Made by a program: the position numbers and the translations under genes. The notes under the pieces were generated by a model, which ran no database searches, was not told the DNA's origin, and saw only the letters and a program-made list of their open reading frames with translations. A DNA stretch of 64,000 nucleotides from Gammaproteobacteria bacterium (GTDB taxonomy: Bacteria; Pseudomonadota; Gammaproteobacteria; GCA-001735895), in NCBI GenBank assembly GCA_030066085.1, contig JASJCI010000029.1:26199-90198 (forward strand). Direction: 5' to 3'. This document shows positions 3,696 through 22,849 of this stretch, in pieces; position 1 is the first letter of the stretch; each line of letters starts with the position of its first letter.

Positions 3696-6062
3696 ATGAG
3701 TTTACTGCTAGACGCGCTAAAAAAAGCCGCTGAACAAAAAGCGGAAAAAAGCAAGCAGAAAGAGGCGCCGCAATCGTCCGGTGACGAGACGATCATCGCT
3801 GCGACGCCGGAGGATGCGTCCGCGCTCGAAACCGGCGACGACGCCGGCTCGCAGGTGCTGCCCCGCGACGTCGAGGATGAAACCGAACTGAACGCGGCCG
3901 AACTCGAAGCGCGCTACGAGCGCTCGCGAAGTGAAGGCGCGGCCGGCGACGAAACCGATATCGAGGCGCCGGAGCAGACCGATACCCACATTCCGGAGCC
4001 GAGCGCGCAGCTCCAAACCGGCGAGGACGAGACCATTGTTTTCGTCGACGATGACGTTTCGGAGTTCATGGGCGATCCGGCCTACATCAACCGCGACCGC
4101 CCCCCGGAAGACGAGACCGACCTGAGCCAGGCAGAGGTTGCCGAGGACCAGACCGGCATCGAACAAACGCCGCCGACCCCGCCCGAAGACGAGACCGATC
4201 TGAGCCAGTTCGCGCAACGCGAGCAAGATACGGACGTTCGTTCGCCCCCCGCGGCGGAAGACCAGACCGACATTTCGATCCCGCCGCCGCTGGCCGACGA
4301 TATCGACCAGGGCTACGCTGACGCGGGCGTGGTAGCCGAGGATACCGACCTGAGCCGTATCCGGGAGCCGGAAGACACCAATCTCGACCAGGCTGGAAAG
4401 CCGGCGGGCGAAGACACGGACCTGAGCCGTGTCGGCGCGAAAGGCGGCGAGGATACCGATATCAGCCGAACCGGCGCCGCAGCGCCGACCGATCCGGAGC
4501 CGTCCGAGCCGCAGGACCTGTCGCTGCTGCTGGCCACCGATCCGGACCAGACGGGTCAGACCACGCGTACGTCGCCAACGGATCCGCGCCTGCCGGGCGG
4601 TCTGCCCGCGACCGGCGACGACGAACTCGCGCTGGTCGATACGACCCAGCATAAATTACCGGACGAGCAGACCGCCGCAACCGAGGCCACGACCGAAGCG
4701 GCGGCGAGCGCCACCGCGACCACCGGCGTGCGTCTCGATACCCTGACTACCGAAGGCACCACCACGCGCACGGAGGCGACCGCGACGCGTACCTACGCGC
4801 CCGACAACTACGACCGCACGCTGATGAAGCTGCCTACCGACGATGCGTCCAGGCTGTTTGCGGGCATGAAGTCGGATGGCGATGTCGTCATGACGCCGGA
4901 CTATGCCAAGAAGGTATTTCTGAGCAAGTCGTCGGCACAGCGGATGCAGCACCTCAGGGTATATGCCGGGATTTTCGTGATGCTGCTGATCGCGGTCGGC
5001 GTCTATGCGGTGTACGAATTTGCCAACCAGTCCGATGCGATCGAAACCAGCCTGCGCCCGCTCAAGCGCGACCCGATGCCGGGCGTGATCCAGCCCCAGC
5101 GTGAGCCCGATATCCAGCTGTTTACCGAAACCGGTGAGGTCAGCCAGCAGACGATCGACATCGTCGAAAGCGCCGATGGCGGGGTCGAGGCCGAGGTTGC
5201 CGACCAGGGTGTCATCGCGGGCGGGGACGAAACCGGAGCGGATGCCGATGCCGCGGAGGAAGCGGCAGCCGGCGATACAGCCACGGCAACGGGGCAGGTG
5301 GCCGCGGTCGAGTCGAGCGCAGCGGGGCCGGCCAGCGACAGCGACGCTTCACCCGCGCCGGCAACCGGCAGTTCGACCGACTCCGGCACTGTCGCCGCAA
5401 TCGAACCCGCTGCCGGCGCCGATGGTCAGCCCGTGGCTTCAACCGACACTGCCGCTGGCAACAAGCTCGAAATCACTACCGGCAGCCGGCTCGACGAAAA
5501 ACAGCTCAAGCTGCGCGAGGCTTACAGCGCTTACCGCGCGGGCAACGACGCGCGCGCGCTCGAACTCTACAGCGAAGTGCTGCGGGAAGACCCCACCAAT
5601 CGCAACGCGCTGCTCGGGCGCGCGGCGATCCACGTGCAGAACGGTAACGTGGTTAACGCGGTGGACGATTACCAGGCCCTGTTGCTGGCCAATCCCAAGG
5701 ACTCGCTGGCGATGTCCTCGCTCCTCAGCGTGGCGAACCTGTCGCCGCGGGAATCAGAATCGCGGCTCAAGCTCATGATTCGCGAAGAACCCGAGTCGCC
5801 TTACCTGAATTTTGCGCTGGGCAATGCCTACGGTGCGCAGAATCGCTGGCAGGAAGCGCAGGGCTTTTATTTCACCGCGCTGCAGAACAACCCGGACGAT
5901 CCGAATTACGCCTACAACCTCGCGGTCAGTCTCGAGCATATCAAGCAGCCGCAGGCGGCAATGAATTATTATCGACGGGCGCTGGCCAACATGGGTAACG
6001 GGCTTGCAACCTTTAGCAGGGATGTAGTGAATCAGCGACTGGAGGTCCTGGGCGGGTCATGA
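3696..6062 (+). CDS. MshN-like TPR protein with long acidic repeat-rich N-terminus and one TM helix
   Basis: N-terminal MSLLLDALKKAAEQK, TM (VYAGIFVMLLIAVGVYAVYEF), C-terminal TPRs; position between mshL and mshE. Confidence 0.8.
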   Translation: MSLLLDALKKAAEQKAEKSKQKEAPQSSGDETIIAATPEDASALETGDDAGSQVLPRDVEDETELNAAELEARYERSRSEGAAGDETDIEAPEQTDTHIPEPSAQLQTGEDETIVFVDDDVSEFMGDPAYINRDRPPEDETDLSQAEVAEDQTGIEQTPPTPPEDETDLSQFAQREQDTDVRSPPAAEDQTDISIPPPLADDIDQGYADAGVVAEDTDLSRIREPEDTNLDQAGKPAGEDTDLSRVGAKGGEDTDISRTGAAAPTDPEPSEPQDLSLLLATDPDQTGQTTRTSPTDPRLPGGLPATGDDELALVDTTQHKLPDEQTAATEATTEAAASATATTGVRLDTLTTEGTTTRTEATATRTYAPDNYDRTLMKLPTDDASRLFAGMKSDGDVVMTPDYAKKVFLSKSSAQRMQHLRVYAGIFVMLLIAVGVYAVYEFANQSDAIETSLRPLKRDPMPGVIQPQREPDIQLFTETGEVSQQTIDIVESADGGVEAEVADQGVIAGGDETGADADAAEEAAAGDTATATGQVAAVESSAAGPASDSDASPAPATGSSTDSGTVAAIEPAAGADGQPVASTDTAAGNKLEITTGSRLDEKQLKLREAYSAYRAGNDARALELYSEVLREDPTNRNALLGRAAIHVQNGNVVNAVDDYQALLLANPKDSLAMSSLLSVANLSPRESESRLKLMIREEPESPYLNFALGNAYGAQNRWQEAQGFYFTALQNNPDDPNYAYNLAVSLEHIKQPQAAMNYYRRALANMGNGLATFSRDVVNQRLEVLGGS

Positions 6063-17756: not shown

Positions 17757-18407
17757 ATGCAGTTGAACAAGCAAAAAGGTTTCACGCTGGTTGAAATCGC
17801 AATCGTACTGGTCATCGTGGGCCTGCTGATCGGCGGCGTACTGAAGGGCCAGGAAATGATCACCAACGCCAAGCTCAAGCGCGTCGAGAGCGACAACGCC
17901 GGTATTGCCGCTGCGATGTTCTCTTACCAGGACCGTTACCTGCAGCTGCCGGGCGACGACGACAGTGCCAGCACTCGTTTCACGATCTTCGCCGGACCCC
18001 CGGTCGTGGCGGGCATCGACGGTGACAGCGACGGCAGTATCGCCGGCGGCTGGATCGGCGATTCCGCGGCAGCTGCTCCGGACCAGGAGACCGGCAACTT
18101 CTGGCGACACCTGCGTGCCGCGGGCCTGATCCCGGGCGGCGGTCTCGACGACACCCAGCCGACCAACGCCTACGGCGGTAATATCGGCCTGCGCGACGGC
18201 TCGATGGACCTCGCTGGACACGTTACGGTGTTCGGTTCGATCGAAGGCCCGATCGCCAAGATCATCGAGGCTCGTCTCGACGACGGCGATCCGACCACCG
18301 GTCGCGTTCAGTCGACCTCTACCGTGGCCGAAATCGACGCCTTTGCCACGTCGACCGACGCGGCCTATGTCGACGACGATCGCTACTTCATGGCGTTCCG
18401 TCTGTAA
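17757..18407 (+). CDS. Major-pilin-like type IV prepilin
   Basis: QKGFTLVEIAIVLVIVGLLIGGVLKG class III signal; strong terminator downstream and sigma-54 promoter upstream. Confidence 0.88.
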   Translation: MQLNKQKGFTLVEIAIVLVIVGLLIGGVLKGQEMITNAKLKRVESDNAGIAAAMFSYQDRYLQLPGDDDSASTRFTIFAGPPVVAGIDGDSDGSIAGGWIGDSAAAAPDQETGNFWRHLRAAGLIPGGGLDDTQPTNAYGGNIGLRDGSMDLAGHVTVFGSIEGPIAKIIEARLDDGDPTTGRVQSTSTVAEIDAFATSTDAAYVDDDRYFMAFRL

Positions 18408-19521: not shown

Positions 19522-20175
19522 TTAGCCCAGTTCTTTCAGCTTACGTGTGAGCGTATTGCGTCCCCAGCCGAGCAGCTTGGCGGCATCCTGCTTGCGTCCG
19601 CGGGTTGCCTCGAGCGCGCATTCCAGCAGGATTTTCTCGAAGGTGCGGGCCGCTTTCTTGAGTATCCGCGTTTCGCCCTGAGCGAGCTGCTGCTGCGCCC
19701 ACATCTTCAGCGACGATTCCCAGTCACCCACATCGGCCAGGCCGCCCGGGCGGTTTTCCGCGTTATCGGCGCCGGGCGGGGTTTCGCAGGCGCGCGCAAC
19801 CAGCTGCAGCGCGTCGTCGATGTCGAAGGGTTTGGGCAGGTACTCGAATGCGCCATCGTGAAAAGCCTGCACCGTGGTTTCCAGGTCGGTGTAGGCGGTC
19901 ATGACGATGATCGGCGTCTGCGGCGATACGTGCTTGATCTGCTTGAGCAGTTCGAAGCCGTTGATGCCCGGCATGCGCACGTCGGTGATGATCAGGTCGG
20001 GTCGCTCCTCGAACGGTGAACGCTTGAAGCGCGCCAGCGCCACCGAGCCCGATTCGAAAGCCGTGACGTCGTAGCCGTTGTTGCTCAGGGTTTTTTCCAG
20101 GACCCAGCGCATGGATTGATCGTCGTCGATGATCCAGACGGAGGCGGGTAGGGGTTTCATCTGCGGTAACGTCAT
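19522..20175 (-). CDS. ntrC: NtrC-derived response regulator, REC + Fis HTH only (no AAA+ domain)
   Basis: Intact REC (IIDDDQ, IITDVRMPG, MTAY, PKPF) joined to an NtrC-type C-terminus (ALEATRGRKQDAAKLLGWGRNTLTRKLKELG); 217 aa; overlaps ntrB stop. Confidence 0.9.
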   Translation of the reverse strand: MTLPQMKPLPASVWIIDDDQSMRWVLEKTLSNNGYDVTAFESGSVALARFKRSPFEERPDLIITDVRMPGINGFELLKQIKHVSPQTPIIVMTAYTDLETTVQAFHDGAFEYLPKPFDIDDALQLVARACETPPGADNAENRPGGLADVGDWESSLKMWAQQQLAQGETRILKKAARTFEKILLECALEATRGRKQDAAKLLGWGRNTLTRKLKELG

Positions 20176-21251
20176 GTCGACTCCAGGGGAAGTATGGTGC
20201 TGAAAGTGGTCCCGGCGGAACTGCTTTGCAGCAGGATCGTACCGCCGTGACGGGACACGATGTCCTGTGCAATCGGCAGCCCGAGACCGCTGCCGTCGGG
20301 TTTGTCCGTAATCATGGGCAGAAAAATGGTCTCCGCCAGCTCCTCCGCGATGCCGCGGCCGCTGTCGACGATGTCGATCTGCACGGCCAGCGGATGGTTC
20401 TTCTTGCCGATGGTGCACTGGCGCAGGATGCGGGTCCTGAAATGCACTTCGCCTTCGCCGTCGATCGCCTGCACCGCGTTGCGCGCGATGTTCAGGAACG
20501 CCTGGATCAGAAGGTCGCGGTCCGCCGTCATGTCGGGGATGCTGGGATCGTAGTCGCGGTGAAAGCGGATGCGCTCGGGCTCGGCCGCTACCATGATCTT
20601 GCGGATGTGCTCGAGCACTTCGTGAATGTTGAGCGGCGCCATCTGCAGCCGGCTTTCCGGCCCGAGCATGTTGTTGATCAGCGCCTGCAGGCGGTCGACC
20701 TCGCTGATGATGATCTCGGTAAACTCGCTCCACTCGGGATTGTCCAGTGCCCGCTGCAGCAGTTGCGCCGCGCCGCGAATGCCGCCCAGCGGGTTCTTGA
20801 TCTCGTGCGCGAGGCTGCGCGTCAACTGCTGGCTGGCCTGCTGGTAAAGCTGCTGCAGGTCTTCCTGCGCGAACTGCACCTGGCGTTCCAGCGGGCGGAT
20901 CTCGATCAGCAGTTCGCCCTCGTCGGGATCGTCGCCGAGCGGGAATATGCTGTAATCCGCGAACAGCGTCCTGCCGCTGGCGAGCGTAATCACGGCGCGG
21001 CGCTCGGTCAGGCCCTGCGGTGCTGCTGCCAGCCGCTGCAGGATCGATGATGGCTCGACACCGCTCAGCAACTTGCTGAACTTGCGACCGGCCAGGTTGC
21101 CGGCGCTGCTGTCGAACAGGTTTTCCGCGCTGGCGTTGACATAGGTGACCCGCTGCTCACGATCGAGACACAGGATCGCGACGTTGAGTGCGTCGAGAAT
21201 CCGGTAGCCGTTGTCGGTCGGTACTGCCTGGTTCATAGCTAGCGCGTGCAT
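20172..21251 (-). CDS. ntrB: Nitrogen regulation sensor kinase NtrB
   Basis: PAS domain; H-box SLAHEIKNPLGGIRGAAQLL; HATPase GSGLGLPIA; between ntrC and glnA. Confidence 0.92.
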   Translation of the reverse strand: MHALAMNQAVPTDNGYRILDALNVAILCLDREQRVTYVNASAENLFDSSAGNLAGRKFSKLLSGVEPSSILQRLAAAPQGLTERRAVITLASGRTLFADYSIFPLGDDPDEGELLIEIRPLERQVQFAQEDLQQLYQQASQQLTRSLAHEIKNPLGGIRGAAQLLQRALDNPEWSEFTEIIISEVDRLQALINNMLGPESRLQMAPLNIHEVLEHIRKIMVAAEPERIRFHRDYDPSIPDMTADRDLLIQAFLNIARNAVQAIDGEGEVHFRTRILRQCTIGKKNHPLAVQIDIVDSGRGIAEELAETIFLPMITDKPDGSGLGLPIAQDIVSRHGGTILLQSSSAGTTFSTILPLEST

Positions 21252-21271
21252 GGATCGGTCCGGGCCAGACA

Positions 21272-21297
21272 AAAAAGGCCCCAAGCGGGGCCTTTTT
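21272..21297. terminator. Intrinsic terminator downstream of glnA
   Basis: AAAAAGGCCCC-AAGC-GGGGCCTTTTT, symmetric, functional on either strand. Confidence 0.9.
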
Positions 21298-21320: not shown

Positions 21321-22730
21321 TTAAACGCTATAGTACAGATCGAATTCGACCGGGTTGGTCGCGAGCCGCAGGCGTTCGACTTCTTCCATCTTCAGGTCGA
21401 TGTAGCCGTCGATCATGTCGTCGCTGAACACGCCGCCGGCGGTCAGGAAGCCGCGGTCCGCGTCGAGTGCTTCCAGCGCCTGGTCGAGCGTGAACGCAAC
21501 CTGCGGGATTTCGGCCTCTTCCTCCGGCGGCAGGTCGTACAGGTCCTTGTCCATCGCGTCGCCGGGGTGGATCTGGTTCTGGATGCCGTCCAGGCCGGCC
21601 ATCATCATCGACGCGAACGCGAGGTACGGGTTGGCGGTCGAGTCCGGGAAGCGAACCTCGATGCGGCGAGCCTTGGGGTTGCTGACGAACGGGATCCGGA
21701 TCGAGGCCGAACGGTTGCGCGCGGAGTAGGCGAGCATGACCGGCGCTTCGAAGCCTGGAACCAGTCGCTTGTAGCTGTTGGTGGCCGCGTTGGCGAAGGC
21801 GTTGATCGCGCGCGCGTGCTTGATGATGCCGCCGATGTAGTACAGCGCGGTCTCGGACAGGCCGCCGTAGCTGTCGCCGGAGAACAGGTTGACGCCGTCC
21901 TTCATCAGCGACTGGTGCACGTGCATGCCGTTACCGTTGTCGCCGACCAGCGGCTTGGGCATGAAGGTCGCGGTCTTGCCGTAGCTGTGGGCAACGTTGT
22001 GCACACAGTATTTCAGTACCTGTACCTCGTCTGCCTTGCGCACCAGGGTGTTGAACGCTACACCGATTTCGCACTGGCCGGCGGTGGCGACTTCGTGGTG
22101 ATGGACCTCGACGCCGAGACCCATCTCTTCCATCGCCAGGCACATGGCCGAGCGGATGTCGTGCAGCGAGTCGACCGGCGGCACCGGGAAGTAACCGCCC
22201 TTGACGCCGGGGCGGTGGCCGATGTTGCCGTCTTCGTAAATCTTGATCGAGCTCCACGCGGCTTCCTCGGACTCGATCTCGTAGGCGCAGTGACCCATTT
22301 CGGTCGACCACTTGACGCTGTCGAACACGAAGAATTCGTTTTCCGGACCGAAGTAGGCGGTATCGGCGATGCCGGTGGACTTGAGGTAAGCCTCGGCGCG
22401 CAGCGCGAGTGAGCGCGGGTCGCGCTCGTAGCCTTCGCCGGTGGACGGCTCGACCACGTTACAGGTCAGGTTGAGCGTGGGCTCGTCGGTGAACGGGTCG
22501 AGGGTTGCGGTTGCCGGATCCGGCATCAGGATCATGTCGGACTCGTTGATACCCTTCCAGCCGGCGACCGAGGAACCGTCGAACATCTTGCCGTCGGTAA
22601 AAAGTTCCTCGTCGACGACGCTCGCCGGCACGGAGACATGCTGCTCCTTACCCTTGGTGTCGGTAAAACGGAAGTCGACGAACTTGACGCCGTACTCGTT
22701 GATCTTGTTCAGCACATCGGCAGCAGACAT
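21321..22730 (-). CDS. glnA: Type I glutamine synthetase
   Basis: [31 protein letters not shown]..., [30 protein letters not shown] motifs. Confidence 0.97.
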
Positions 22731-22770: not shown

Positions 22771-22798
22771 ATTGTACCGATAATCGGCAAATTGCCAA
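22771..22798 (-). promoter_or_regulatory. Candidate sigma-70 promoter for glnA
   Basis: Minus strand TTGGCA-N16-TACAAT, each hexamer 5/6 to consensus. Confidence 0.55.
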
Positions 22799-22832
22799 TT
22801 TATCGTGCAAAAATCAGGAGTTTAGCAAAAAA

Positions 22833-22849
22833 TGCACTATTTTAGTGCA
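22833..22849. promoter_or_regulatory. Candidate NtrC operator upstream of glnA
   Basis: Perfect palindrome TGCACTA-TTT-TAGTGCA, matching the NtrC consensus form TGCACY-N5-GTGCA; ~100 bp upstream of the glnA start. Confidence 0.75.

Follow-up and report, generated by a model that had tools for sequence, protein, structure and literature searches.

A short NtrC lacking the AAA+ domain in a genus of uncultured gammaproteobacteria, with target promoters that appear to have moved from sigma-54 to sigma-70

In the stretch of DNA analysed here (64,000 nucleotides of contig JASJCI010000029.1, hereafter the window), the nitrogen-regulator gene ntrC encodes a protein of 217 residues whose receiver domain passes through a short linker directly into the NtrC C-terminal domain, with no central AAA+ domain. 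Textbooks use NtrC to exemplify the sigma-54 enhancer-binding proteins and treat its AAA+ engine as essential. We know of no NtrC without this domain, and none was found in the open literature that we searched, most subscription journals lying outside its scope. The best explanation, to which we assign a probability of about 0.78, is that the protein is a genuine and functional NtrC orthologue devoid of the sigma-54-remodelling AAA+ domain, and that its phosphorylated form would activate sigma-70 promoters. The gene, its parts and its two neighbours are as follows.

19522..20175, (-), short ntrC, 217 residues, receiver-linker-Fis/HTH, without AAA+
19798..20139, (-), receiver domain, residues 13–126; D65 is the phospho-acceptor, and D65, T93 and K115 are invariant
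19726..19782, (-), linker, about residues 132–150, short and fast-evolving, at the position of AAA+ in full-length relatives
19525..19725, (-), complete NtrC C-terminal dimerisation and DNA-binding domain, residues 151–217; four helices, match to 1ntc
20172..21284, (-), ntrB (PAS-HisKA-HATPase), above the NF008293 NR(II) cut-off; ATGA overlap with ntrC
21321..22730, (-), glnA (glutamine synthetase), upstream of ntrB-ntrC

The translation of 19522–20175 is free of stops over all 217 residues. Pfam recognises Response_reg at residues 13–126 (104 bits) and HTH_8 at residues 177–216 (53.9 bits), and finds no match to Sigma54_activat (PF00158) in the protein; between receiver and HTH there is room only for the short linker and the beginning of the C-terminal domain. 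The top-scoring family is NCBIfam ntrC (TIGR01818), at 223 bits, below its cut-off of 558.6; in the genome search this match consists of two stretches, model positions 1–124 and 396–463, with the middle absent. Alignment with full-length relatives places a gap where the AAA+ domain sits. Residues D17–D19, D65, T93 and K115 are invariant among the orthologues of the genus, and these include the phospho-acceptor and the T and K switch residues picked out by the sequence-only reading.

Of the solved structures, 1dc7, that of the NtrC receiver, is nearest to the receiver, and for the C-terminal 67 residues the only PDB match is the NtrC DNA-binding domain 1ntc, over positions 24–89 of 91. The AlphaFold model is confident in the receiver, disordered in the linker (residues 136–149) and forms four helices within residues 152–216; Foldseek matches are mostly driven by the receiver and add little. 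The 1ntc match and the modelled helices indicate that the cut follows domain borders and that the dimerisation unit is complete. The clean in-frame loss of AAA+ at domain boundaries, as first proposed from the open reading frame, is backed by the comparative data below, and a tblastn search with the AAA+ domain of the congener G007 detected no AAA+ remnant near the short gene within the window. The glnA-ntrB-ntrC neighbourhood is normal, with the coupling of ntrC to ntrB (the ATGA overlap) that had been read from the letters. By descent and neighbourhood the protein is, as judged from its sequence, an NtrC orthologue. It does not qualify as a sigma-54 enhancer-binding protein, having neither the AAA+ sigma-54 interaction domain nor sigma-54 target promoters.

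The organisms that carry the short form are uncultured gammaproteobacteria, and most of their genomes are MAGs. The same architecture occurs in 18 species of the genus (17 complete orthologues, that of the window included, and one partial), the orthologues being 54–82% identical to the protein of the window and lying in the same syntenic block. It recurs on an independent MAG contig (L076) that is 97% identical in DNA, and on the 1.4-Mb scaffold DS021199.1 (L085) of the Gamma3 endosymbiont of Olavius algarvensis, a gutless marine worm. Pairwise dN/dS is 0.03–0.20 overall, lowest in the receiver and the HTH (down to 0.01 in the latter) and mostly about 0.3–1 in the linker; the gene is under strong purifying selection. 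The fast-evolving linker and the prevalence of MAGs would suit a pseudo-regulator in decay or an artefact of assembly, whereas the low dN/dS in the receiver and HTH speaks against such a reading, and conservation refutes it: because 18 species and independent assemblies show the same architecture, and no relative points to the misassembly that had been raised as a concern, the short form is neither chance nor misassembly, and the probability left to a pseudo-regulator or artefact is negligible.

Intact NtrC is encoded by two congeners (G007 and G016) and by seven genomes of two sister genera. A further congener, G014, has an NtrC of 451 residues (L062:7715-9070) that is in frame and carries a decayed AAA+ domain: the GAFTGA segment is deleted, Walker B is not conserved, and Sigma54_activat scores 64 bits, versus 235 in G007. 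As far as sequence can tell, G014 is a natural intermediate in a series from intact NtrC through a decayed AAA+ domain to the short form. Outside the family, two unrelated lineages carry independent short forms: G041, from another gammaproteobacterial family, has a short NtrC of 198 residues on contig C14 (L072:6082-6678), and L089, a MAG named Acidiferrobacteraceae, has one of 192 residues (4992–5570), both in a glnA-ntrB-ntrC locus and both with two NtrC boxes before glnA. The short form is not unique to the 18 species of the genus, these two lineages having it as well. Among 370 sampled genomes of the class, the matches listed included short forms only from the study genus and G041, which marks the event as rare. 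Loss of the NtrC motor has probably happened more than once among gammaproteobacteria.

Within the genus, the main short-form clade is well supported (100/99). On the GlnA+NtrB tree the short pair G010/G024 groups with the intact G007/G016 and with G014 (support 94/90 and 85/84); on that topology AAA+ would have been excised twice inside the genus. The sigma-54 site before glnK was also lost in two different ways. The alternative concerns the history only, and holds that one old excision stands beside one decayed cousin (G014); we place it at slightly less than even odds, given that an AU test does not reject a single clade of short forms (p 0.19) and that a quick REC+HTH tree places G014 beside all of them. 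A strict proof of two excisions was, by the same AU result, not obtained. We make no claim that G005, G017, G018, G019, G025, G027 and G028 have lost the whole system, because glnA is also absent or cut at contig ends in these genomes.

Upstream of glnA in the window, four elements can be placed.

22833..22849, (-), NtrC box TGCACTAAAATAGTGCA, a perfect TGCAC-N7-GTGCA palindrome upstream of glnA
22793..22809, (-), TGCACGATAAATTGGCA, possible degenerate second NtrC site over the -35, with a TGCAC half
22793..22798, (-), -35 element TTGGCA of a sigma-70-like glnA promoter, the NtrC-box centre lying 43 bp upstream
22771..22776, (-), -10 element TACAAT of the same sigma-70-like promoter, after a 16-bp spacer

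Nearly all genomes of the family have this arrangement at glnA, an NtrC box followed by TTGG(C/T)A-N16-TACAAT, with the box centre either 43–44 or 53–55 bp from the -35, two classes that are one helical turn apart. A sigma-54 site (called when 9 or more of the 12 consensus positions match and GG and GC are invariant, a score reached by 3% of shuffles) is recognised in none of 23 glnA promoters of the family, versus 42 of 46 in other gammaproteobacteria, a count that omits locus L116, whose upstream stretch was wrong; nor was one found in the scanned regions upstream of glnA in the short-form lineages G041 and L089. Since family species with full-length NtrC share the sigma-70-type glnA promoter, the switch at glnA appears older than the loss of AAA+. 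All crown short-form genomes examined have the TGCAC half of TGCACGATAAATTGGCA; G010/G024 and the full-length relatives lack it. Only two perfect TGCAC-N7-GTGCA palindromes exist in the 4.39-Mb genome, against one for the reversed-pattern control, and a wide NtrC regulon was rejected on this ground; the other (G000:C32:15872-15888, L164) lies about 300 bp before a HemN-like gene and may be there by chance.

Two NtrC boxes, spaced by about 31 bp, persist at glnK-amtB; in G014 they are not recognised. A sigma-54 site stands 50–65 bp before glnK in six of the seven species with intact NtrC versus none of the 11 short-form species, where G011 is counted as short on the strength of its sister G010 (a contig end truncates the ntrC of G011 itself) and where the species counts are not independent, so that Fisher tests on them ignore phylogeny. 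G034 has an intact NtrC yet no recognisable glnK sigma-54 site, and the site is also absent from G014. In the main short clade, the glnK segment bearing the site is deleted, and a conserved candidate promoter, TTGCnn-N16-nARAAT, is found 44 bp from the box centre in the same geometry as at glnA; its -35 and -10 are weak (7–9 of 12 matches) and were partly picked by position. At both main targets, recognisable sigma-54 promoters are missing where AAA+ is missing. We note that G018, whose ntrC is missing from the assembly, has a near-perfect sigma-54 site, TGGCACGGTTTCTGCA, upstream of glnK (L188), which predicts an intact NtrC in that genome.

The left-edge gene of the window (L008) is, as had been suggested, a sigma-54 activator; it is of PEP-CTERM type, with its AAA+ domain just beyond the window edge. 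The predicted sigma-54 promoter at about 17692 (+) also reads as a good site, TGGCATGCAAATTGCT, right before a pilin-like gene at 17757, and sigma-54 seems to be in use still outside nitrogen control. RpoN, presumed present from these two features, is found in 38 of 41 genomes of the family and gives two matches in that of the window. These lie at G000:C50:86648-87124 and G000:C76:2957-3430; nearly all congeners have one, and the pair may reflect duplication or MAG contamination. A second, full-length NtrC elsewhere, the other possibility raised from the sequence, was rejected: in the profile search no protein of the genome passes the ntrC cut-off of TIGR01818, a model that gives 663 for a congener's genuine full-length NtrC, and the eight sigma-54 activators encoded elsewhere in the genome (L002, L003 and L004 among them being judged by TIGR01818 scores only) all fall below it.

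In the mechanism that we propose, NtrB would phosphorylate the receiver of the short NtrC, and the phosphorylated protein, dimeric through its intact Fis-like C-terminal domain, would bind the ancestral NtrC boxes and contact sigma-70 RNA polymerase directly, activating glnA and glnK-amtB. The contact would be made from a fixed helical face, with the box at about -77 or -88 relative to the predicted start. We infer that the short protein depends on phosphorylation and is controlled by NtrB. Its targets would use sigma-70, and its effect is presumably activation and not repression. The shift of the target promoters to a sigma-70-like form bears out that part of the sequence-only reading's expectation of action through sigma-70, activation itself being suggested by the promoter sequences. 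Historically, the glnA promoter of the family would have passed from sigma-54 to sigma-70, the remaining sigma-54 target, glnK-amtB, would have been lost or rewritten later, and AAA+, needless by then, would have decayed with loss of GAFTGA, as in G014, or been excised; inside the genus, this order of events is the one we infer.

The main rival to sigma-70 activation is that the short NtrC acts chiefly as a repressor or anti-activator, blocking or modulating sigma-70 promoters of glnA and glnK that are constitutively active. Some promoters of other bacteria are repressed by NtrC (PMC10274813), the G041 boxes (-68 and -38 from the ATG) are near the gene start in a repressor-like place, and the degenerate box of the window overlies the glnA -35. 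In the genus, however, the good glnA box precedes the -35 by a helically phased 43–55 bp, and the promoter-proximal box of glnK is phased likewise, both of which fit activation better; we consider repression unlikely. It is very unlikely that the short protein instead tethers another AAA+ activator at sigma-54 promoters in a mixed assembly, a reading favoured by the presence of RpoN and the eight activators in the genome, since every short-form species lacks a sigma-54 site at glnA and, at the expected position, also at glnK, and no stand-alone AAA+ partner is found among the eight. Sigma-70 activation has its own difficulties: the classical class I spacing of CRP differs from a box at -77 or -88, and Caulobacter NtrC loses its function when AAA+ is deleted or Walker A/B is mutated (PMC10274813), so loss of the domain is not automatically tolerated.

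The closest precedents for the short NtrC are those of Rhodobacter capsulatus and Caulobacter, which lack GAFTGA and work at sigma-70 promoters in a phosphorylation-dependent manner, the R. capsulatus protein keeping its AAA+ domain with a requirement for ATP binding (PMC10274813 and references therein). Its promoter architecture appears compatible with sigma-70 activation of this type, but the domain that is kept and needed in these two proteins is wholly gone from it, and only the G014 protein, without GAFTGA and with AAA+, fits their description. The receiver and C-terminal DNA-binding domain are orthologous to those of enterobacterial NtrC, or NR(I) (TIGR01818, NF008176), which has the same glnA-ntrB-ntrC locus and the same TGCAC-N7-GTGCA operator. 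Unlike the enterobacterial protein, the short form has no AAA+, Walker A/B or GAFTGA and cannot remodel the sigma-54 holoenzyme. The likeness to the redox regulators ActR/PrrA/RegA drawn in the sequence-only reading stands for the architecture (REC-Fis, about 180–220 residues, no AAA+) and not for the family, whose model NF033791 scores 70.6 against a cut-off of 250; sequence and neighbourhood are those of NtrC. Fis, the sigma-70 activator of rRNA, has the same Fis-type dimerisation and HTH fold, without the receiver and without phosphorylation control. In a proposal of Morett and Bork, Fis is said to derive from the NtrC C-terminus.

We think it rather probable that in at least three gammaproteobacterial lineages NtrC independently gave rise to AAA+-less, phosphorylation-controlled sigma-70 activators, that in each case the target promoters had already left sigma-54, and that the intact, GAFTGA-less and excised stages live on in one genus. 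If so, this is a route by which sigma-54 activators can turn into RegA/Fis-like regulators. Sensing, DNA binding, the operators and the gene order have all outlasted the engine here, and the promoters have altered along with it. Close relatives with intact, decayed and excised NtrC form a natural set for testing how an activator leaves sigma-54 for sigma-70, whether the promoter is the first to change, and whether such a path could have led to the REC-Fis regulators and even to Fis. In these genomes, a nitrogen regulator that is probably functional escapes annotation when the ntrC cut-off is applied. We also note that the near-identical MAG contig L076 (JASJCA010000177.1) was deposited as 'Rhodobacter sp.'; its relatives are gammaproteobacterial, and the record is likely misnamed.
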